64,000 nucleotides of DNA from an uncultured cyanobacterium (GTDB lineage Bacteria > Cyanobacteriota > Cyanobacteriia > Cyanobacteriales > Microcystaceae), in NCBI GenBank assembly GCA_903887375.1, contig CAISPN010000034.1, positions 1 to 64,000 on the forward strand, given 5' to 3'. The notes beneath the pieces were generated by a model. That model was given only the letters and a program-made list of their open reading frames with translations, was not told the origin of the DNA and made no database searches. This document shows positions 5,538 through 39,330 of the stretch, piece after piece. Position 1 is the stretch's first letter; the number at the start of each line of letters is the position of its first letter. Made by a program: the position numbers and the translations under genes.

Positions 5538-5909
5538 CTAGTCTAGATAGCCCATCAACAAGGCAGGATCATCAATTTCATTGGATGCCACAGGGCGACT
5601 ACCCATAACTGAGTAAGTGTCACTGATTTTCAAATGGCTCACAGCAATAGGACGATTACCAGAAATAGTCAAAGTTCCACTCATTTCAACCTCACTGGCA
5701 ACAACCGGTCTAGTTGTACCAACTGAATTGTAGGTTTTGACGACATTGAGATGGCTAGCTTCGATTGGTCGGTTGTTGGGAAGAGCTCCCAAATTAGAAC
5801 TATTTTTTACTGAAATAGCAAGCTCCTCTGATTTAGATTTGGCAGCAGCTCTAGTTTTGGTTGTTTCAGGGATTGGGGTTTCTTGTAATTCCACTTTCTC
5901 AGTCGTCAT
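5538..5909 (-). CDS. Small repeat protein with 'RP(I/V)' units
   Basis: A 123-aa soluble protein with no signal peptide. The first 45 residues are charged and Ala/Thr/Lys-rich. The rest consists of four units of about 20 residues, each beginning N/T/S-R-P-I/V and continuing with a small-residue/Ser/Glu/Leu pattern (for example 'NRPIEASHLNVVKTYNSVGT' and 'NRPIAVSHLKISDTYSVMG'). No enzymatic motif is visible. The even repeat spacing suggests a stacked beta or coil structure. It has its own terminator, so it is probably a single-gene transcript. The biochemical function is unknown. Confidence 0.75.
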   Translation of the reverse strand: MTTEKVELQETPIPETTKTRAAAKSKSEELAISVKNSSNLGALPNNRPIEASHLNVVKTYNSVGTTRPVVASEVEMSGTLTISGNRPIAVSHLKISDTYSVMGSRPVASNEIDDPALLMGYLD

Positions 5910-5958: not shown

Positions 5959-6480
5959 TTATTCTAAACTAACATTGAAGATTACCCAGAAATCTATCAT
6001 GAAAAGTGGCACAGTTAATACAAGTAGAGCTAGATACATCCAAGGCTGAGCGAGAGGAGCAATATCTTTAGTATCTATAGCAGTATTATTTTCTATTTCC
6101 TTAAGTAATTTGGAAAAGCCAGCAACTCTCATTGGTAGTAAATAGGCCTTAGAATTGCTCACAAAATAATAGACTATTCCTCCTTGACCAGTAGTGCGCA
6201 TCTTGAGCTCTTTAATTTCCTGCCATGGTAAACTCCAGCCAGAGAGTATAGGTACCCAGGACCCGTAGGATACAGAAATACCATTCGAGCTAACAACCAC
6301 TCTCTCGCTGAGAATGGCCAGTAATACTACAAAGCCCAATATTATAAATAGCCAAACCAGCAAAGGATCTATTGAAGTTTCGGTAACCTTGGCTAAAAAA
6401 GGTAGCGGAATCATTAGTGAACCATAGAGGCTCAAAAGAGTAAAGCGGATCAATGGTGAGAGTCGAAAGCTTTGATTCAT
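5959..6480 (-). CDS. Hypothetical membrane protein
   Basis: About 173 aa from the ATG at 6480; a TTG at 6504 would add eight residues. It has two transmembrane segments near the N-terminus and one at the C-terminus. In between is a soluble beta-rich stretch of about 80 residues ('VVVSSNGISVSYGSWVPILSGWSLPWQEI'), a pattern like bacterial PH-like membrane proteins. No catalytic residues were seen. It is divergent from the large two-gene operon starting at 6623. Confidence 0.65.
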   Translation of the reverse strand: MNQSFRLSPLIRFTLLSLYGSLMIPLPFLAKVTETSIDPLLVWLFIILGFVVLLAILSERVVVSSNGISVSYGSWVPILSGWSLPWQEIKELKMRTTGQGGIVYYFVSNSKAYLLPMRVAGFSKLLKEIENNTAIDTKDIAPLAQPWMYLALLVLTVPLFMIDFWVIFNVSLE

Positions 6481-6622
6481 CAAGGTTTTCTGAATATTAA
6501 GCAAAGCTATAGTCTAACTCAAAATATTGTTTTTGAAATTCCAGAAAATCAGTAACAAAATACTTTACAGATCTACTAATACCATGATACGATGGTTCGT
6601 AAATATAAACTAAGTAAAGCAA

Positions 6623-9586
6623 ATGAATATATTGTCCGAAGACAATAATAGTCTTAGTCGTCTGGACTACGATCCAGTATTGGCAAATATTTTGAGGCAT
6701 ATTCAAGAAAATAAACTATTTGACTGGGCAGAAAATGAGCAACAAATTATTTTACAAGCTCATCAAATAGCACAAAAAGTTGCTATAGAAAATATTGAAT
6801 ATCCTCTCTTTGCCGAATATGGTACTCGCAGCGCAACAATCAATCTTACAGAGCAATCAGAGCGCTCCTTTGCCCAAAAAATTCAACAGATCTATAAAGT
6901 AATATCTAACCAACTCTCAGAAACTCAATTAAAGCTACCTAGCCTAGTTAGAGAGCAATCTACCTTGCGCCTGGAAAAACAACCAAACCAACTAGGTTTT
7001 TCCTACCATTTCCCTGGTTATCCTCATCTAGTTCAAAAAAGACTCAGCCTGCAAAGCAGCAACAAGGGTTCTGATGCTGCTCTAAAATTGCACTTGCTCA
7101 CTGTCACTGTTAAAAATATCAATAGCTTTACCAATGAGCTCAAACAGAGTATCAGCAATCTCTATGCAAATGAGTTTCCGCCTGATGCGCAAGAACAAGA
7201 AGATATTCAACAGGAATTAGAAAATCAATATAAAAAACCAGATTCTAGCTTTTATAAGCTGCGCAATTTAGTCTTTGAAGAGACTGTGGGCAAGCTAAAA
7301 AAAGAAGCAAAAATTCTGTATTTAGAATACCTTAAAGAAAATATTGAAGATAAAAATAATCTAGATCTAATCTATTTAAAAAATCTCATTAAAAGATTGC
7401 GACTTTTGGAGCAATATATAAATGACTTGAATAAATCTGATTCAGAATATGACGTCGAATACGAGGGTTGTAAGGTCAATTATAAGGATATATTCTCTAG
7501 GGCTGAAGCTTTAGATCGCTTGCCAATTATTCCAATAGTCGAAGGTAATTTAGGTGAATCCTCGCAAATAGAAAAAGGCACTAAAGAATTTATCTTTTGC
7601 CTAAAAATGAAACTCAATGGCAATGTTAACAATCAATTTGATAGCACAGTTTCAGTTTTAGATTACAATTTACAAATATTAAATCCTGAAAGTGCTGAAC
7701 ATCAAGAGGCAATTAACAGTAATACTGGCAGAGAAACTTTTATTCGCAAGGTTTTGCAGTCATTCTTACTCTATTATTTTGTTTTTGCCCAAATGGATGA
7801 TGAAAATTTTGATCCAGTAGCCAAATATGAGCAAAGATGTCTAGCCACACTACAGGGCAATGATCAAGATAAAAAAAGAAAGCTTTTTAAAAATCTCGTA
7901 AAAAGATTTGAAGAAATTAATATACATGCCAAAGTAGACAAGCTCAAAAAAATAATCCAAGAGAGTCTCAAAAGAGCTGCAATTACTGAAGCTAAAAGTT
8001 GGTCAATATATTTAGGACTCTCTACAGCAATTTTGGCCCCAGCTAATGAGATAAGTGATGGCAATGGTGATAGTTTCTTTAGAGCTAATATAACCAAATC
8101 AAAAGAATATCTCAAATATATTACTTTAACTGCAAATAATGTTGATCAAAATAATCTAGCTCATCTGCCTGTTAAATTTACAATCAAGGATATGCGCTAT
8201 TTCCCAAGTGAACAGGAACAGTCTCTCAGCTTCAATTACAATATAGATGGGATCAAATTTTTACCTGTTATTTTCTGGAATAATGCTGGGAAGAATGATA
8301 AAATCTCTCGAGAATATTATAGGTATTTTGACAAGCAAAAACATATCAGCATACCTTATGTTAATAATATTTTAAATGGCAAGCAATATGTGCAATCTTT
8401 TCTATATAAATTTACATTTTCTCTGCTAGTTTACATCAGCTTAAAAACAATTATTACCCAATTGAAACTATCGGAAGATTCATTTATAGGTATATTGCGT
8501 CTACATAAATGTGGCAAGGATAATTCTCCAGCAGATGAAGAATTTATTCATCATTTTTCTAAGACCTTGGATCATCTTTTATCTCAAGATGTTCTTGCCA
8601 ATTCTCAAGGGATCAATATCAATGATTTAAATAGTTATAAAGTTCAAAATGCACTATCTTCTTTCTATATAAAATTACCAAAAGTCTTTGAGTTCAAGCA
8701 ATATACCCCAAAATTAAATCGTTTGGGAATTATTGTAGTTTCCAGCAGAGAAGCTGATCGCAAAACTGGAGAAGATACAGTCTTGAGTAACCTTATAGGT
8801 GAGGTCATCACTCTAGATCGCCAAGACAATGGAATCCATCTGCGAAATCTGCGTACCTTTTCAGCCAACTTTGAAAAATCCAAAATGTATCAAAAACCTG
8901 CGCTCTTGATTGATCAAGTCGATGATCTCTACCGCAGAGGTTATCAACATATTTTCTATGTAGCTAGGACTCCTTATTCTAGTTCTCTAAATCTCAACTT
9001 GAAAGATGAAGATGATTTTTTCATGTCCAAATCAGTGCTAGCTTCGCTTAAGGGAGATAAATCGGATCTTAAAATCTATCCAATTTTCTTTGACAAATAC
9101 CATGTCAAGAAAATAAAACCAATAAGTGATTCTACTGCTTACTATGTCAAAGACAGCAGAGAACTAGATAAATTAGTGCATGATTCTAGTAAACAGACGG
9201 TCATCTTTTTTAATCTCTTTAGTGGGATTTCTGTAGGTAGGGACCAGAAGGTTTACAATGGCGTGATTTCCTATGCTACTTTACTCAATGTCTACCAAGG
9301 AGTCCTCCAAGAGCAAGATATCCGCCAAGCTCTGATTCATGATGACGATGATAATCAGCTCAAAAATGATCTACTCAACTATTTAACGCTAGTTCATTAT
9401 GCTCGTTATGAAGCAAGATCTAGATTTAATATCAAATTAGATCCCTATGAAAATATCATAGGTGATCAATCAGTAGGAGCTTACTCCATCTTCAATCATG
9501 GCTGTGATAACAAATTTTCTATTAATTTTAACTCGTTAGCCTTTTTAACGGAAGTTCGCAATATAGTTAATGCCAATGTCAACTAA
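6623..9586 (+). CDS. Large uncharacterised protein, possible PIWI/RNase H-like C-terminal region
   Basis: A 987-aa soluble protein, first gene of a two-gene operon. Residues 1-330 are mostly helical and charged, with coiled-coil-like Lys/Glu runs. The middle (about 330-690) has no recognised motif. From about residue 701 an alternating beta/alpha pattern begins: 'LGIIVVSSREADR', then 'IGEVITLDR', a helix, a strand 'HIFYVARTPYSS' (Arg782), and 'KIYPIFFDKYHV'. The protein ends at Glu977 plus ten residues. This resembles the PIWI/RNase H fold, and a PIWI-RE-type protein next to a helicase would fit the neighbour. No clear DEDX tetrad is visible, so it may lack nuclease activity. Ile ATA and Lys AAA codons are frequent and the region is more AT-rich than flanking genes, suggesting transfer. 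The domain call is tentative; the ORF itself is certain. Confidence 0.6.
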   Translation: MNILSEDNNSLSRLDYDPVLANILRHIQENKLFDWAENEQQIILQAHQIAQKVAIENIEYPLFAEYGTRSATINLTEQSERSFAQKIQQIYKVISNQLSETQLKLPSLVREQSTLRLEKQPNQLGFSYHFPGYPHLVQKRLSLQSSNKGSDAALKLHLLTVTVKNINSFTNELKQSISNLYANEFPPDAQEQEDIQQELENQYKKPDSSFYKLRNLVFEETVGKLKKEAKILYLEYLKENIEDKNNLDLIYLKNLIKRLRLLEQYINDLNKSDSEYDVEYEGCKVNYKDIFSRAEALDRLPIIPIVEGNLGESSQIEKGTKEFIFCLKMKLNGNVNNQFDSTVSVLDYNLQILNPESAEHQEAINSNTGRETFIRKVLQSFLLYYFVFAQMDDENFDPVAKYEQRCLATLQGNDQDKKRKLFKNLVKRFEEINIHAKVDKLKKIIQESLKRAAITEAKSWSIYLGLSTAILAPANEISDGNGDSFFRANITKSKEYLKYITLTANNVDQNNLAHLPVKFTIKDMRYFPSEQEQSLSFNYNIDGIKFLPVIFWNNAGKNDKISREYYRYFDKQKHISIPYVNNILNGKQYVQSFLYKFTFSLLVYISLKTIITQLKLSEDSFIGILRLHKCGKDNSPADEEFIHHFSKTLDHLLSQDVLANSQGININDLNSYKVQNALSSFYIKLPKVFEFKQYTPKLNRLGIIVVSSREADRKTGEDTVLSNLIGEVITLDRQDNGIHLRNLRTFSANFEKSKMYQKPALLIDQVDDLYRRGYQHIFYVARTPYSSSLNLNLKDEDDFFMSKSVLASLKGDKSDLKIYPIFFDKYHVKKIKPISDSTAYYVKDSRELDKLVHDSSKQTVIFFNLFSGISVGRDQKVYNGVISYATLLNVYQGVLQEQDIRQALIHDDDDNQLKNDLLNYLTLVHYARYEARSRFNIKLDPYENIIGDQSVGAYSIFNHGCDNKFSINFNSLAFLTEVRNIVNANVN

Positions 9587-12500
9587 ACACTCGCTGGGTT
9601 TTCTTTTTGAAGTAGCCTTTAATTTGGGCATCTTGAATTATATTAAGCAGAAACAAATCAGCAATCGCTATGGTGAAATATATTGCAAAGATCTAGAATT
9701 ATTGAAATTTTCTAAAATAAAAGAGCGAATTTTTAAACAGGAAAATATATTTGATCCAGCTAATAGAGACACAGTAGAACAATGGTGTTTATTTATTCTC
9801 CAAAAAGGGTTCCTCTCTGGTCTTAACTTTATTGATGAGTATATAACTTCTCTTGGCAGCAAAAAAGATAGTATAGAAATTCATTATCTACAGTCTAAAT
9901 TTAGCGGTGATAACAGCTTTGGCATCAATAATAGTACCGACTATAATAAAATTCTCCAACAGTTAACCCAGCAAGCTATAGATATTAGTTATTATCAAAA
10001 AAAAGGGGAATTTCTCAATGCCGATACTCTTTTATTGATAAAAGCTAAGGAACAATACCGAATATTAACAGTTGATCTTTCCCTGTTTTCTTTTAAAACA
10101 ATGCAAGATCTCCAGGGAATAGATGATATAGAGCAAATCAAAAGAATATTATTAAAAGAAATTAACTATTTAAAATCAAAAAGTGTCTTTGCCAATTTGA
10201 GTATAGATACAGGAGAAGAAACTTTTCCTTTAAATAATAAACTTGGTTACTATTTAAAGGCTTTTAGTCGCGAAGATAAAGAAAGTTATAAATTAATTCA
10301 AGCTGGTAGCTACGCTTATAGTTTTTATGAATTCCTAAAAAAATATGATATTTTAAGTGATGCTGATAGGCTAATTTGTAATATTATTGGTTATAGTGAT
10401 CGCGGGGCAAGCGCGATGGCTATCAATCAAAATAATCTTGAATTTCTCAAAAATTGTCAGACTATATATCAACAAAATCAAGGCAATGAAAATATAGATC
10501 AAGCTAGAGATAGGCTTTTTAAAACCATCATCAAAAGTGCTAAAAAAAGTTTTCCTGATAGTGGAAAATTATTTGAAGAACTTGATAAACTTTCTCCTTC
10601 TCGCAGTGAACCTATTAGCTATCAAGAAACTATTTCTGATTTTCTTGCAGCCCAAAGTGTCCTATCAGAAGATAATTTAAAAAGCATAGACCTAAGTGGC
10701 AATATTAAGCTGCGCGATGCCCATGCCCAATTAGTCCATAAAGGACTTGATAGCCAAACGCCTTATATCTTCTTAACTGGTAATCCAGGTATCGGCAAGA
10801 CTACTGCCTTGGTAAAATTTCTGGAAAACCATTTCGATGAGGGTTTTATTTTTCTTTACTGTAGTCCTCGCACGCAAGTAAACCTAGATATTATTAACAA
10901 ATTTACTCGTGAAGACCTCAATAGTGAAAAAAGCAAAAAAGTTTTTGCAATCACTACCGATAGTCAAATAATCAGTAGCCAAAATGGTCTTCCCACGGTG
11001 AGATACTTCAGTGATCTATTTCAAGATAACTTTCAACAAGGAAATATCACCTTTTTGAAAAATCTTCCTGAAAATTTCAAAAAAATCAAACAAAGGCTCA
11101 AGCAGGAAAAAGAAGATCTAATTATTGACCAGGAAAGCAAGAATGCTGGAGTGATCAATAGCCTCTTTAGCGCCTTGGGTATTTTGATTGAAAAGAACAT
11201 ATCTCGACAGGTCGTAGCATCTCTCTCAATTCAAGCTTTAAAAAAAACCAACCATGGTAATACAGATACATTAGATTATTTTGAGCATATATTTAGATCT
11301 GCGCATAGAAAAGGCTATGGACTGATTGATTCAAAAATGCAGGATATTGCTAGCAGATATAAGTATTTTTTTATCATGATTGATGAAATCACAGGCGATC
11401 CTAGTGGAGTTGAATTTCTCAGCAAAATCAGCAAACTTTTAGAAAAGTATAAACTCCTTGATGGCAAGTATGGCTTTAATTGTAAGATCATAGTTGCCGA
11501 TGCATCGATTGTAGAGCAAGATGTCATAAGAGCTCATCTTAAAAATCAAGATTATGAACCCAATAAAATTTTCTATCGCCAAGAAAAAAGCGAGAGTTTA
11601 CCAATTTCTCTAGATCGATTCAAATTTAATAAAAGGGATGCTATTAGTATTAATACTAACTCTTATCCTGCCAGAGAACTAGTAATTAACTATAAAATAT
11701 TTACCCAATCTTTTCAATATAATCAAGATCAACTCAAACAAGAAAAATTAGAACTTAACAAGGGGATTGATTTTGATATATCAAATCAAATCACTGAACA
11801 AAGCGATCCCTATCAAACAATAGTCTATATTCAAAATAAAAATAGACTACAAGAATTGATCCAGACCATAAAAAATAAATTAGATTATTTTGAAAAATTT
11901 GAACAGTATATTGAAATACATTCTAATATTTCAGATGATGAAATAGAAAAAATTAAAGAGAAAAAAAATTCAGTTAAAATCATCTTTATGACTGCTTCAG
12001 CTAGTAGAGGTCTATCTTTTCCTAGGGTAAAGCGCATTATAGTTGATTTGCCACGTTTTTCTATTGAACAAAATTTAATGGAAATTATCCAGGTCATATA
12101 TCGAGGAAGAGGCAAAGATCCTCATGATGGATTAGATTTAGAAGATCAAGTCAAAGAACTTACTTTTTATATTACTGAGGCAATTTACTATGATCAAGAA
12201 AATTTAGAACTTTCTTTTAAAGAGAGAATAATCAATATAATTGATATTTTGTTAATTTTAAAAGCGGCAATTCTTACAAGAATTAAAGGCTCTTGTCCTA
12301 TTGGTAAACATAATTATAAAATCATACCTGTAGGTGGCAAATCCGTCACATCTGCTCAAACTAACTATAGTGAGCAACTCGGCAATTTCATTGACGAACT
12401 CAAAAAACAGGCAAATACAAAACCTACTCATAAAAAAAATCTCGAGGAAATTGCTTCTCAATTAACTAGTTTACTTAATCAGTTAGATATTAAAATTAAA

Positions 12501-13175
12501 GATATTTCACATAATTCAAATAATAAATTATCCTATCTCTCTGTGAGAGAACCATTTCAGGAAAAATTTGAAAAAGATATTAATAAAGGCTTTCACCTAT
12601 TACTAGATTTTTCTGAATTAGAACCATGCCATGTTACAGGTAGCCTCTTGATAGTACCACTTGGAAATAAAAGAATACAAGAAGTCTATCAAATGCGTCC
12701 TTTAGCATACCCAGATCAATTACTAGATAAAATCTACAAAATTTCTGCTAATCCTGAGTATCCTAAAAATCTTAAACAATCAGCTAAGATTACTAGCGAA
12801 ATGATTGAAAAGCTTAAAAACAATCAGAATATTACTCAGTATTTTTTACAAAATAGCCAACGCAATGATCAATATTATGCAGTTCCTATGTTTATTTTTA
12901 CTGCAGCTAAGTTGATGGAAGATTATTTCTCTCAAGCTAGAAAAAATGATTCTGAAAATATTAATTTTAAAGCTATTCTCAAAAACTATTTAGCTTTGCT
13001 TTATCCTATAGGCTACGTATTACCGATAGGTAAAGATTATGAGAAATTTCCCTTTATAGTCTTTAATAGCCATGATTTACCAGAAATTAGAAATCGTTTG
13101 TATACTAAAGCGCAACTATTGACTTCCTCTGAATTAAATATTTTGAACTTGATTCTTTCGCAAAGTCCGGATTAA
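9570..13175 (+). CDS. SF2-type helicase/ATPase with large N-terminal extension, second gene of putative defence operon
   Basis: A 1201-aa protein overlapping the upstream gene by 17 nt, so the two are translated together. Motifs: Walker A 'TGNPGIGKTT' at about 403-412; motif Ia-like 'CSPRTQVNLDI'; Walker B 'IMIDEITGD' (D605, E606); motif V-like 'MTASASRGLSFPRVK' from 807; motif VI-like 'QVIYRGRGKDPHDG' from Q841 with R845/R847. The last two are arranged as in DinG/XPD-like SF2 helicases, but no Fe-S cysteine cluster is evident. Residues 1-390 contain 'ADTLLLIKAKEQYRILTVDLS', which loosely recalls a PD-(D/E)xK strand pair but lacks the expected Lys. The C-terminal 300 residues are unassigned. 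AT-rich and flanked by core genes. Helicase identity is probable; a defence role is inferred. Confidence 0.72.
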   Translation: MPMSTKHSLGFLFEVAFNLGILNYIKQKQISNRYGEIYCKDLELLKFSKIKERIFKQENIFDPANRDTVEQWCLFILQKGFLSGLNFIDEYITSLGSKKDSIEIHYLQSKFSGDNSFGINNSTDYNKILQQLTQQAIDISYYQKKGEFLNADTLLLIKAKEQYRILTVDLSLFSFKTMQDLQGIDDIEQIKRILLKEINYLKSKSVFANLSIDTGEETFPLNNKLGYYLKAFSREDKESYKLIQAGSYAYSFYEFLKKYDILSDADRLICNIIGYSDRGASAMAINQNNLEFLKNCQTIYQQNQGNENIDQARDRLFKTIIKSAKKSFPDSGKLFEELDKLSPSRSEPISYQETISDFLAAQSVLSEDNLKSIDLSGNIKLRDAHAQLVHKGLDSQTPYIFLTGNPGIGKTTALVKFLENHFDEGFIFLYCSPRTQVNLDIINKFTREDLNSEKSKKVFAITTDSQIISSQNGLPTVRYFSDLFQDNFQQGNITFLKNLPENFKKIKQRLKQEKEDLIIDQESKNAGVINSLFSALGILIEKNISRQVVASLSIQALKKTNHGNTDTLDYFEHIFRSAHRKGYGLIDSKMQDIASRYKYFFIMIDEITGDPSGVEFLSKISKLLEKYKLLDGKYGFNCKIIVADASIVEQDVIRAHLKNQDYEPNKIFYRQEKSESLPISLDRFKFNKRDAISINTNSYPARELVINYKIFTQSFQYNQDQLKQEKLELNKGIDFDISNQITEQSDPYQTIVYIQNKNRLQELIQTIKNKLDYFEKFEQYIEIHSNISDDEIEKIKEKKNSVKIIFMTASASRGLSFPRVKRIIVDLPRFSIEQNLMEIIQVIYRGRGKDPHDGLDLEDQVKELTFYITEAIYYDQENLELSFKERIINIIDILLILKAAILTRIKGSCPIGKHNYKIIPVGGKSVTSAQTNYSEQLGNFIDELKKQANTKPTHKKNLEEIASQLTSLLNQLDIKIKDISHNSNNKLSYLSVREPFQEKFEKDINKGFHLLLDFSELEPCHVTGSLLIVPLGNKRIQEVYQMRPLAYPDQLLDKIYKISANPEYPKNLKQSAKITSEMIEKLKNNQNITQYFLQNSQRNDQYYAVPMFIFTAAKLMEDYFSQARKNDSENINFKAILKNYLALLYPIGYVLPIGKDYEKFPFIVFNSHDLPEIRNRLYTKAQLLTSSELNILNLILSQSPD

Positions 13176-13188
13176 GAACAATCTTTTT

Positions 13189-13863
13189 TTAATCTATATC
13201 GCCAAAGCGATAGCCTTTACTATAGACTGCATGAATTAGGGGTTGTTCCTTTTCAATCTCTATTTTACGGCGGAGCAAACGAACTAAAGCCGCCAATACG
13301 TTACTATTGGGGGTTTCACCACTAGAATCAGTCCAGACATATTGATAGATTATTTCGTGAGTGAGCAGTTGTCCAGGATGCTGCATAAATAGGGTCAGTA
13401 AGGCAATTTCTTTTTCTGAAAGGGCAATTGCTTTGCCTTGGCGATAAACTATTTGATTTTCGCTATCTAATTCTAAATCTGCCACCTTGAGATGAATAAA
13501 AGCATTCGAGCGGCGCAGCAAGGCTCTGACTCTTGCTTGTAGCTCTCTCAATTCAAAAGGTTTAACCAGATAATCATCAGCGCCAGCATCTAACCCTTCT
13601 ACTCGATCATCTAAGGTATCTTTAGCGGTTAAAAATAATACCGGTGTTGTTTTACCGGCTAGACGCAAATTGCGGCAAATTTCTAAGCCAGAACAATGCG
13701 GCAACATCCAATCTAAAATCAAAAGATCATAATGCTCACTGTTGGCTAATTTTAAACCTTGCTCGCCATCGGCTGCTACATCGACGTCATAGCCATCGTT
13801 TGAGAGAATATGACTAAGGGGAGTCGTCAATTGAGTCTCATCATCAACCAAGAGGATGCGCAT
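13189..13863 (-). CDS. OmpR-family two-component response regulator (RppA-like)
   Basis: 224 aa. The receiver domain has acidic residues 'VDDE' near 6-9, the phosphoacceptor Asp in 'LLILDWMLP' near 51, Thr in 'LFLTAKD' and Lys in 'DDYLVKPF'. A winged-helix DNA-binding domain follows from about 125 to the end ('EKEIALLTLFMQHPG', 'LRRKIE'). It is most like cyanobacterial RppA-type regulators of redox or metal response, but no partner sensor kinase gene lies next to it here, so the target is unknown. It is convergent with the helicase gene and divergent from hisG. Confidence 0.88.
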   Translation of the reverse strand: MRILLVDDETQLTTPLSHILSNDGYDVDVAADGEQGLKLANSEHYDLLILDWMLPHCSGLEICRNLRLAGKTTPVLFLTAKDTLDDRVEGLDAGADDYLVKPFELRELQARVRALLRRSNAFIHLKVADLELDSENQIVYRQGKAIALSEKEIALLTLFMQHPGQLLTHEIIYQYVWTDSSGETPNSNVLAALVRLLRRKIEIEKEQPLIHAVYSKGYRFGDID

Positions 13864-13911: not shown

Positions 13912-14556
13912 ATGTTGACCGTTGCTATGCCCAAAGGGGCTCTATTGACTGACAGTATAAATATTTTTAAAGAGATCGGTCTAGACTTTAGTTTGCTCCT
14001 AGAACCGGGTAATCGTCAACTTCAAGTTACAGATCCTACAAACAGCGCTAAAGCACTTTTAGTTAGAGCGCAGGATGTTCCGGTCTATGTTGAGTACGGA
14101 CAAGCTCAATTAGGTATAGTAGGTTATGATGTATTATTAGAAAAAAAACCGGCTGTAGCCCAGCTTTTGGATTTAGGTTTTGGTGGTTGCCGAATGTCAG
14201 TAGCAGTTCCCAAAACGAGCCCCTACAAAAAATCCCAGCAATTACCTCCCAATGGTCGGGTAGCCTCTAAGTTTGTCCACTGCGCCCAAGATTACTTTTA
14301 TAAACTAGATCTACCCATAGAAATAGTTCCACTTTCTGGCTCAGTTGAGTTAGGTCCGATTACAGGAATGTCTGAGGCAATAGTAGATCTAGTATCTAGT
14401 GGAAAAACACTAAAAGAAAATGGACTTGTTGAAATAGACGTCCTTTTTTATAGTACAGCTAGGCTAGTGGCTCACCCACTAAGTTACCGTTTAAATTTAG
14501 ATAGTATTGCTGACTGGATTGCCAGGTTAGAAAAAAAACAATCAGGTAACTTGTGA
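13912..14556 (+). CDS. hisG: ATP phosphoribosyltransferase, short form
   Basis: First step of histidine synthesis: ATP plus PRPP gives phosphoribosyl-ATP. The 214 aa length is the short form, which needs the HisZ regulatory subunit (not in this window). The start '[12 protein letters not shown]' and '[25 protein letters not shown]' contain the PRPP-binding loop. The stop overlaps the next gene's GTG start by 4 nt (GTGA), indicating coupling. Confidence 0.94.
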
Positions 14557-29748: not shown

Positions 29749-30738
29749 ATGGATAGTAGTTTAATTCTGTCTAACATATTAAATCCACCAGTATTGTTTT
29801 TCTTTTTGGGGATGCTGGCAGTTATTGTTCAATCTGATCTGGAAATTCCTAATCCACTGCCCAAACTATTTTCACTTTATCTTTTAATAGCTATAGGCTT
29901 TAAAGGTGGACATGAACTTATCAATAATGGATTAAACCCTCAAGTTATATTAACCTTGATAGCTGCAATATTAATGGCAGTAATAGTTCCTTTGTATTCT
30001 TTTTTCATACTAAAATTAAAACTAGACAATTATAACGCCGCAGCAATTGCAGCCACTTACGGATCAATCAGTGCAGTAACCTTTATTACAGCAAGTGCCC
30101 TGCTTGATAAATTGCAAATAAATTATGGTGGACACATGGTAGCGGCACTAGCTTTGATGGAATCTCCTGCGATTGTAGTTGGATTATTGCTAGTGCGTAT
30201 ATTTACAAAAAACAACAAAAATGGCGAGAATGAATTAGAGCAGACATCTTGGGGAGAAGTTTTACATGAAGCTTTTTTAAATAGTTCTGTTTTATTATTG
30301 ATTGGCAGTCTTGTAATTGGAATACTTACAGGTATTAATGGCTGGAATAAAGTTCATTTGTTCATAGACAAAGATATATTTTATGGCGTATTGATGCTTT
30401 TTTTGCTTGATATGGGATTAGTAGCAGCACGCAGGATAAAAGATGTAAGTAAAAGTGGTACTTTTTTAATTAGTTTTGCAATATTTATTCCAGTTATCAA
30501 TGCCTTGGCTGGTATACTTCTTAGCAAAGCTATTGGCATTGGTCAAGGTAATGCTCTTCTATTTGCTGTTCTTTGCGCCAGCGCATCCTATATTGCAGTA
30601 CCGGCAGCAATGAGAATGACAGTACCGGAAGCCAACCCAAGTCTTTATGTATCAATGGCGTTGGCTATTACATTTCCCTTCAATATTATCGTAGGTATCC
30701 CGATCTATTTGTATGTTATAAAAATGCTGGGAATTTAA
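29749..30738 (+). CDS. sbtA: Sodium-dependent bicarbonate transporter SbtA
   Basis: 329-aa inner-membrane Na+/HCO3- symporter of the carbon-concentrating mechanism, with about ten transmembrane helices. 'LYLLIAIGFKGGHEL', 'TYGSISAVTFITAS' and, in the second half, 'LCASASYIAVPAAMRM' are the inverted-repeat core motifs of the family. It is somewhat shorter than the best-studied SbtA (about 370 aa); the cytosolic loop between the two halves is compact. sbtB follows after 2 nt. Confidence 0.93.
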   Translation: MDSSLILSNILNPPVLFFFLGMLAVIVQSDLEIPNPLPKLFSLYLLIAIGFKGGHELINNGLNPQVILTLIAAILMAVIVPLYSFFILKLKLDNYNAAAIAATYGSISAVTFITASALLDKLQINYGGHMVAALALMESPAIVVGLLLVRIFTKNNKNGENELEQTSWGEVLHEAFLNSSVLLLIGSLVIGILTGINGWNKVHLFIDKDIFYGVLMLFLLDMGLVAARRIKDVSKSGTFLISFAIFIPVINALAGILLSKAIGIGQGNALLFAVLCASASYIAVPAAMRMTVPEANPSLYVSMALAITFPFNIIVGIPIYLYVIKMLGI

Positions 30739-38646: not shown

Positions 38647-39330
38647 ATGAGTTTACCAGTAAAGATTCCCTTTTCTACCTGTTCTTTAATCGGCAACTTA
38701 AAAAATTATTTTGAATCATTTATACCTGAAGTTTCTCAAGTATCTTTTTCAAGAGTAGAACAAAATTATCGTGGTTATTTCTCAAGCGAAAAAGAAATCT
38801 TTGTTTATTTACAACAACAGATAGATTGTAAAGATTTTTTGGAATTTGAAGTCATATCTAGTTCATTGGGCTATTTAGATTTCAAGTTGAGTGATCGTTC
38901 TTTGGTACTTTGGCTCAATCAATTACCTAGATATCTTTCTCAATTAACCTACAATTATTCAAATCAAGAAGAAATGGATTTTCTTTTGCATTATGTTCAC
39001 GCACGCTGCCACGCTCTCTTACGTCTTGCTAAACAAGAGAAAATAATTCCAGATAATTTTGATTTAACCGAGGTTGATTGGACTGTTCTTGATTCAATCT
39101 GGGAAAAACAATTTTTTTGGCAATTACTAGATATACCTGAATATCCTATAGATCAAAAAAGGCTATTAAAAATTGCCCAATCTACACTTGATGTTGAGCG
39201 CTATTGTCGTATCTGGGAAAAAAATCACAACCTATCCAAAACAAGGCTATTTCTGTTTTTACTCTCAAGTCTTATTCTCAATCAATCAGTAAAGGTTCTC
39301 TTTCAACAAGAACTGCTAACAAGATTATAA
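38647..39330 (+). CDS. Stand-alone DALR anticodon-binding-domain protein
   Basis: 227 aa, resembling the C-terminal anticodon-binding part of arginyl-tRNA synthetase: 'LLHYVHARCHALLRLAKQ' is the tRNA-contacting helix. There is no HIGH/KMSKS catalytic core. It is not a broken ArgS: it has its own start, full-length frame and a different N-terminal 110 residues. A tRNA-binding or regulatory role is inferred. Confidence 0.75.
   Translation: MSLPVKIPFSTCSLIGNLKNYFESFIPEVSQVSFSRVEQNYRGYFSSEKEIFVYLQQQIDCKDFLEFEVISSSLGYLDFKLSDRSLVLWLNQLPRYLSQLTYNYSNQEEMDFLLHYVHARCHALLRLAKQEKIIPDNFDLTEVDWTVLDSIWEKQFFWQLLDIPEYPIDQKRLLKIAQSTLDVERYCRIWEKNHNLSKTRLFLFLLSSLILNQSVKVLFQQELLTRL

Follow-up and report, generated by a model that had tools for sequence, protein, structure and literature searches.

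A cyanobacterial gene pair encoding a predicted Argonaute-fold protein and a superfamily 2 helicase, a candidate guide-directed system against foreign DNA

In the first 64,000 nucleotides (nt) of contig CAISPN010000034.1 from an uncultured cyanobacterium of the Microcystaceae, the stretch analysed here as a whole (the window), two large overlapping genes, A and B, encode two proteins that we consider, with a probability of about 0.6, to form a guide-directed system against foreign DNA. Structure modeling indicated that protein A has the fold of an Argonaute overlooked by sequence methods, and protein B is a superfamily 2 (SF2) helicase preceded by a candidate nuclease domain. The two genes strictly co-occurred and co-evolved among relatives, and thus work as one unit.

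Predicted Argonaute fold of protein A

Pfam Piwi (PF02171) matched neither A nor any of its 32 relatives, no other Pfam family matched them consistently, and searches of A against the NCBIfam and PADLOC models returned no meaningful match. Comparison of A with PDB chains by sequence or profile gave no meaningful E-value, hhalign detected no significant profile similarity between A and the cyanobacterial long Argonautes, and a PF02171 search of genomes was negative for genome G000. Two weak Pfam matches of A, HRI2_3H and NuiA, were treated as chance because they did not recur across its relatives.

The AlphaFold2 model of A, with 64 homologues in the alignment, had a predicted local distance difference test score (pLDDT) of 85.5 and a predicted template modeling score (pTM) of 0.85, and showed MID and PIWI domains in the N-to-C order of Argonautes. 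Residues 620–691 followed the β-α-β-α-β order of a MID-like domain, and residues 700–984 the PIWI order of three long strands, a helix, a strand and additional strands and helices. All 33 PDB chains matched by Foldseek at E ≤ 0.001 were Argonautes, with Thermus thermophilus Argonaute (TtAgo) as the best match (E = 1.7e-6). VIA aligned the model to Argonautes at Z values of 9 to 11 over residues 138–980, this same span being paired with residues 3–677 of TtAgo (Z about 10.5), and residues 528–980 matched the MID-PIWI part of Argonautes by Foldseek and VIA. The agreement of the model, Foldseek and VIA therefore indicated an Argonaute fold in A that sequence search did not see. It also confirmed the proposal, made in an earlier inspection of the letters and open reading frames (ORFs) of the window (the sequence-only reading), that the alternating β/α C-terminus of A resembled PIWI/RNase H.

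Conserved residues of A were compared between clade I of the family and the diverged clade II, which comprises other cyanobacteria and plasmids of Acinetobacter, Cupriavidus and Acetobacter. Besides the QG dipeptide of the MID-like domain (Table 1), Y884 and H925 were invariant across both clades. When A was compared to the Y/K/Q/K residues of the MID pocket, the Q was invariant and the final K was mostly kept as K687 (60 of 64 clade I members), while the first two positions were K647 and H651 in clade I and held Y and K in Acinetobacter members only. In the motif alignment, S707, T or A783 and S883 occupied the positions of the expected catalytic Asp residues and no DEDX tetrad was recovered; because of these replacements, the canonical slicing site of A appears to be lost. 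The DEDX tetrad is missing in long-B Argonautes and present in most long-A Argonautes.

Table 1 Features of the A/B locus in the window
Feature	Coordinates	Strand	Evidence
Gene A, long protein with predicted Argonaute fold, 987 aa	6623..9586	+	ORF, AlphaFold2, Foldseek, VIA
Gene B, SF2 helicase of 1201 aa that also has a candidate nuclease domain at its N-terminus and an extension at its C-terminus	9570..13175	+	ORF, Helicase_C, AlphaFold2, Foldseek/VIA
A/B overlap, 17 bases	9570..9586	+	ORF coordinates; 17-base overlap also in the nearest relative, locus L058
N-terminal extension, A residues 1–137	6623..7033	+	Argonaute alignments by VIA begin at about residue 138
MID-like domain, candidate pocket for the guide 5′ end, A residues ~590–695	8390..8707	+	Strand/helix order of the model; conservation of Q662, G663 and K687
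Q662-G663 of the MID-like domain	8606..8611	+	Conserved in 39/39 proteins aligned from both clades; in clade I, 63/64 and 64/64
PIWI/RNase H-like domain, A residues 697–987, canonical tetrad apparently lost	8711..9583	+	Model order, Foldseek/VIA, residue alignment
Candidate PD-(D/E)XK/RecB-like nuclease domain, B residues ~60–260	9747..10349	+	Pattern of invariant residues, inferred
SF2 helicase core, B residues ~380–910	10707..12299	+	Walker A 404–412, DE 605–606, motif VI 841–848

Helicase B and the A/B unit

B matched Helicase_C (E = 1.2e-6), and the fold neighbors of its AlphaFold2 model (pLDDT 82.2; model numbering equals the residue numbers used here minus two) were SF2 helicases by Foldseek and VIA. 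The SF2 motif residues that we checked were conserved in 104 of 104 homologues, among them K410 and T411 of Walker A, D605-E606, Q841, R845 and R847, save S812 (99 homologues) and F817 (103). Walker A, DExx and motifs V and VI were present, together with two RecA-like lobes. The SF2 motifs that the sequence-only reading had assigned to the second gene were thus borne out, but the DinG-like character that it gave to motif VI was not: the motif reads QVIYRGRG, and the cluster of four conserved Cys residues typical of the DinG iron-binding region was not found across the 104 B proteins. Because this cluster is missing, B is not a DinG-type helicase.

In the N-terminal domain of B, D152, K237, K241, Q244 and Y248 were conserved in 104 of 104 homologues, E90 and S171 in 102 each, and residue 169 was D in 97 and E in 7. 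Homologues sharing this pattern are about 20% identical and come from three phyla. In the model, D152 and D/E169 lie on two strands, and the following helix bears K241 and the Q244xxxY248 motif. This layout points to a RecB-like PD-(D/E)XK nuclease in which Ser takes the place of Lys, and the nuclease that was previously supposed to be either fused or missing may therefore be present as a fusion, in the N-terminal domain of B.

At all 67 loci with an intact pair, A preceded B on the same strand, with 30 or fewer bases between the genes at 40 of them, and the distance matrices of the two proteins were correlated with r = 0.96. Among 98 relatives, both genes were present in 39, neither in 57, A only in none and B only in two (Fisher p = 2e-25); the last two carried B remnants, one with three stops and the other of 37 residues. 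Both genes were also kept in two genomes where A and B were separated on different contigs, and tandem A-B-A-B and A-B-A arrays were also seen. The fixed gene order and the co-occurrence supported the suggestion from the sequence that the two giant genes form one operon unit, and the overlap of A and B in the window makes translational coupling likely. As a separate observation, the beginning of B has been duplicated in tandem in Okeania sp. SIO2C9, where partial copies of its first ~80 codons stand three in a row between A and B (L104:5786-7295).

The pair family was present in 136 of 294 nearly complete genomes of the source order (46%). Within the phylum, A was found in 16% of the genomes and 31 of 32 family matches fell in the source order; in the Ktedonobacter phylum (Chloroflexota; Ktedonobacteria), the family was found in 8 of 151 genomes. 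Plasmid-borne copies included conjugative plasmids, and five cyanobacterial plasmids carried a near full-length B at 43% identity. The pair on a Trichormus plasmid was nearly identical to a Fischerella pair, with the hosts belonging to different families. In the congeners G000, G001 and G002 the pair occupied different contexts, and a block of response regulator, hisG and ABC genes was present without the pair in G001. Broken copies were detected in more than a dozen genomes, in a collection where many genomes are drafts. No relatives were found in a search of phages and viral contigs.

Proposed mechanism and alternative explanations

We propose that A would act as a catalytically inactive long Argonaute-like protein, whose MID domain would hold the 5′ end of a short nucleic-acid guide. 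Guide-loaded A would find complementary DNA, probably that of a plasmid or phage, without cutting it, and would recruit B to the opened DNA, where B would load and translocate. B may then cut the DNA with its N-terminal PD-(D/E)XK-like domain or pass it to host nucleases. Such a defense role is plausible because of the analogy with the DdmDE and ApsAB systems and because copies of the pair are patchy, decaying and sometimes plasmid-borne.

Both of these systems consist of an inactive Argonaute-like protein and a helicase-nuclease, and remove plasmids (PMC12409362, PMC11096173). The Argonaute-like DdmE associates with DNA guides, and DdmD is loaded by it on the displaced strand; DdmD combines an N-terminal SF2 helicase with a C-terminal PD-(D/E)XK nuclease (PMC12409362). 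In ApsAB, both the MID motif of ApsB, Y[X]3K[X]nQG[X]nK, and the helicase are required for plasmid loss; the PIWI RNase H fold is described as absent from ApsB, and the nuclease of ApsA is C-terminal with a D...DVK site (PMC11096173). The A/B pair resembled the DdmDE systems of Vibrio cholerae and Lactobacillus casei in having two genes, for an apparently inactive long Argonaute-like protein and an SF2 helicase with a PD-(D/E)XK-type domain (candidate in B), and resembled ApsAB of Escherichia coli ST38 in combining an Argonaute-like protein with QG in its MID motif and a helicase-nuclease (again a candidate in B). The tested layouts that define DdmDE and ApsAB were nevertheless missed, because the nuclease-like domain of B precedes the helicase, DdmE and DdmD were not found by profile in the PDB, and A keeps a PIWI fold in its model. 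A similar comparison applies to the inactive long-B prokaryotic Argonautes, which all lack the catalytic site and include members with nucleases (PMC6299218). A shares with these the Argonaute fold, the apparently lost tetrad and a partner nuclease, which in B is a candidate; unlike them, it was missed by Pfam Piwi and by profiles of the cyanobacterial long Argonautes, and its partner is a helicase fusion.

Several findings weigh against a guide-directed defense system. In the neighborhoods of homologues, which the sequence-only reading proposed to check for defense genes, no defense enrichment was seen near the pair, since PADLOC families numbered 75 in the near zone (<2.5 kb from the pair) and 82 in the far zone (>5.5 kb); no known PADLOC system matched the pair either. 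Within Nostocales and Microcoleaceae, the tree of the pair mostly tracked taxonomy, which does not fit a simple mobile island, and in Nostocales and the Microcoleus group fur or pheT adjoined the pair at fixed chromosomal loci, a stability that a housekeeping gene could also show. Hhalign, Pfam and PDB profiles gave no match for the N-terminal domain of B, and because no family or PDB profile supports a nuclease there, we infer it from the residue pattern; this domain may also not cut, because Ser171 replaces the catalytic Lys of (D/E)XK and no profile matched. Finally, D712 and E727 of A are still conserved, and A may contain an unusual active site.

The stable loci in Nostocales and Microcoleaceae, the lack of defense enrichment nearby and the near confinement of the pair to one order within the phylum, with some members in Chloroflexota, would also fit a chromosomal maintenance module, acting in replication, decatenation, R-loop removal or repair of the polyploid host chromosomes. 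We consider such a module distinctly unlikely, as the pair is missing in more than half of the order and repeatedly decayed, is AT-rich, occurs in tandem copies and is carried by plasmids of cyanobacteria and of Acinetobacter, Cupriavidus and Acetobacter. The sequence-only reading had named homologues conserved as core genes at the same locus in all relatives as the pattern that would speak against defense. This pattern was partly seen, at the fur and pheT loci of Nostocales and the Microcoleus group, and broke down elsewhere: the pair is missing in about half of the order, is often decayed or plasmid-borne, and lies at different loci in congeners. It is also unlikely that the pair represents the ApsAB/DdmDE lineage proper in a new host group, with A as a diverged long ApsB/DdmE and B as a rearranged ApsA/DdmD. 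The C-terminal nuclease of ApsA and DdmD differs in position from the N-terminal candidate in B, whose pattern (residues 90–248, ahead of the core at ~380–910) has D/E-x-S, and the residues that are invariant in the C-terminal part of B include no D...DVK site of the ApsA type. The helicase motifs differ as well, QVIYRGRG and DEIT in B versus QAVGRVER and DELH in ApsA/DdmD, and the PIWI RNase H fold predicted in A is what ApsB is described as lacking. Profiles of A and B retrieved no DdmE or DdmD chain from the PDB at E ≤ 1. By fold, A was nearer to the canonical Argonautes than to DdmE, which ranked 49th in the Foldseek search of the A model (E = 0.85) and was missing from the top 50 VIA rows for A, although this absence does not argue for a different fold. 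A distant common origin with ApsAB is nevertheless conceivable, because QG of the ApsB motif is invariant in A, the clade II proteins of Acinetobacter, the only members with the Y and K of this motif, have YxxxK shortly before QG, and ApsAB-like systems have been reported from some cyanobacteria (PMC11096173).

The parallel with PIWI-RE islands drawn by the sequence-only reading did not hold as kinship. A three-component PIWI-RE restriction system that had shrunk to two genes would account for the same general parts, a PIWI-fold protein, an SF2 helicase and a restriction endonuclease (REase)-fold component, the last being a candidate in B, yet we regard such an origin as very improbable. The pPIWI_RE Pfam models matched none of 33 A proteins, and hhalign of A against the PIWI-RE proteins of the same phylum gave a probability of 0.2%. 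In a search of 146 genomes of the phylum with PF13032, four other genomes (3%) matched and G000 did not. B aligned with the DinG helicases of PIWI-RE triads only at Walker A and did not match their REase by hhalign. Homology of A and B to PIWI-RE and DinG proteins was thus rejected at the profile level. In addition, the triads have three genes in the fixed order REase-DinG-PIWI, in contrast to the two genes of the A/B pair, in which the Argonaute-like gene comes first and B has no Cys cluster. Apart from this comparison, two clean PIWI-RE triads (REase-like, DinG, PIWI-RE) were located in the source order (L149:868-8967 and L150:494-8386), and one of these genomes, G055, also contained A and B, unlinked.

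We see an even chance that the pair belongs to an unrecognized third lineage of inactive Argonaute and helicase-nuclease, separate from DdmDE and ApsAB, missed by current Argonaute and defense profiles, and with an N-terminal nuclease that has Ser in place of the catalytic Lys. Pfam Piwi was found in 9% and PIWI-RE in 3% of the phylum genomes, and the pair in 46% of the order genomes. If the third lineage is real, the pair would be several times commoner in its home order than the recognized Argonautes, and surveys of Argonautes and defense systems in cyanobacteria would overlook the commonest Argonaute-fold protein there, because sequence profiles cannot detect A. The plan of a guide-binding Argonaute and a recruited helicase-nuclease would then have a further, unrecognized form. 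Such a system would bear on the resistance of filamentous cyanobacteria to plasmids and phages, a practical obstacle to their genetic engineering, and would provide a new DNA-binding protein that is guided and brings its own motor.

Composition of the locus and neighboring genes

The ORF call on the window placed A and B on the same strand exactly as proposed earlier, as two overlapping ORFs of 987 and 1201 codons, and the AT-richness and heavy use of ATA and AAA codons ascribed to them were confirmed by comparison with the other 46 ORFs of the window. The GC (guanine plus cytosine) content was 0.337 for A and 0.309 for B versus 0.406 ± 0.026 for these ORFs, and AAA codons made up 6.6–8.2% of A and B versus 3.7%, and ATA codons 2.4–3.0% versus 1.9%. 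AT-richness was a property of the whole family, with the pair below its flanks in GC at 72 of 73 loci (mean −6.1% GC). Apart from A and B, the most AT-rich genes of the window are located at 38647-39330 (+; GC 0.316) and 29749-30738 (+; GC 0.351).

The genes flanking the pair in the window are ordinary. A small bPH-domain-like protein is encoded upstream of A (5959-6504, −), and an RppA-like response regulator (13189-13863, −) followed by hisG (13912-14556, +) is found downstream of B. No Rfam RNA was found at the pair locus. Farther upstream, the gene at 5538-5909 (−) encodes a 123-aa protein with no family match and with repeats like (G/N)NRPI-x-SHL...TY...GxRPV-x-S.

Among the neighbors of homologous pairs, an apparent kinase cluster spanning 50 loci was disregarded, since single linkage had probably lumped multidomain cyanobacterial kinases together. 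HNH endonuclease genes were observed directly after B on an Acinetobacter piscicola plasmid (L141:13507-14526) and between A and B in Planktothricoides (L122:8937-9368), where they possibly provide an optional extra nuclease. On Trichormus plasmid C, the genes beside the pair (L138:14125-23600) encode a DEAD helicase as well as two large proteins of the sacsin-domain/TmtA-like kind, and probably form another defense module. Close to the pair of Tengunoibacter tsumagoiensis lies a CARF-PDDEXK (Csx1-like) CRISPR accessory gene (L131:3931-4854).

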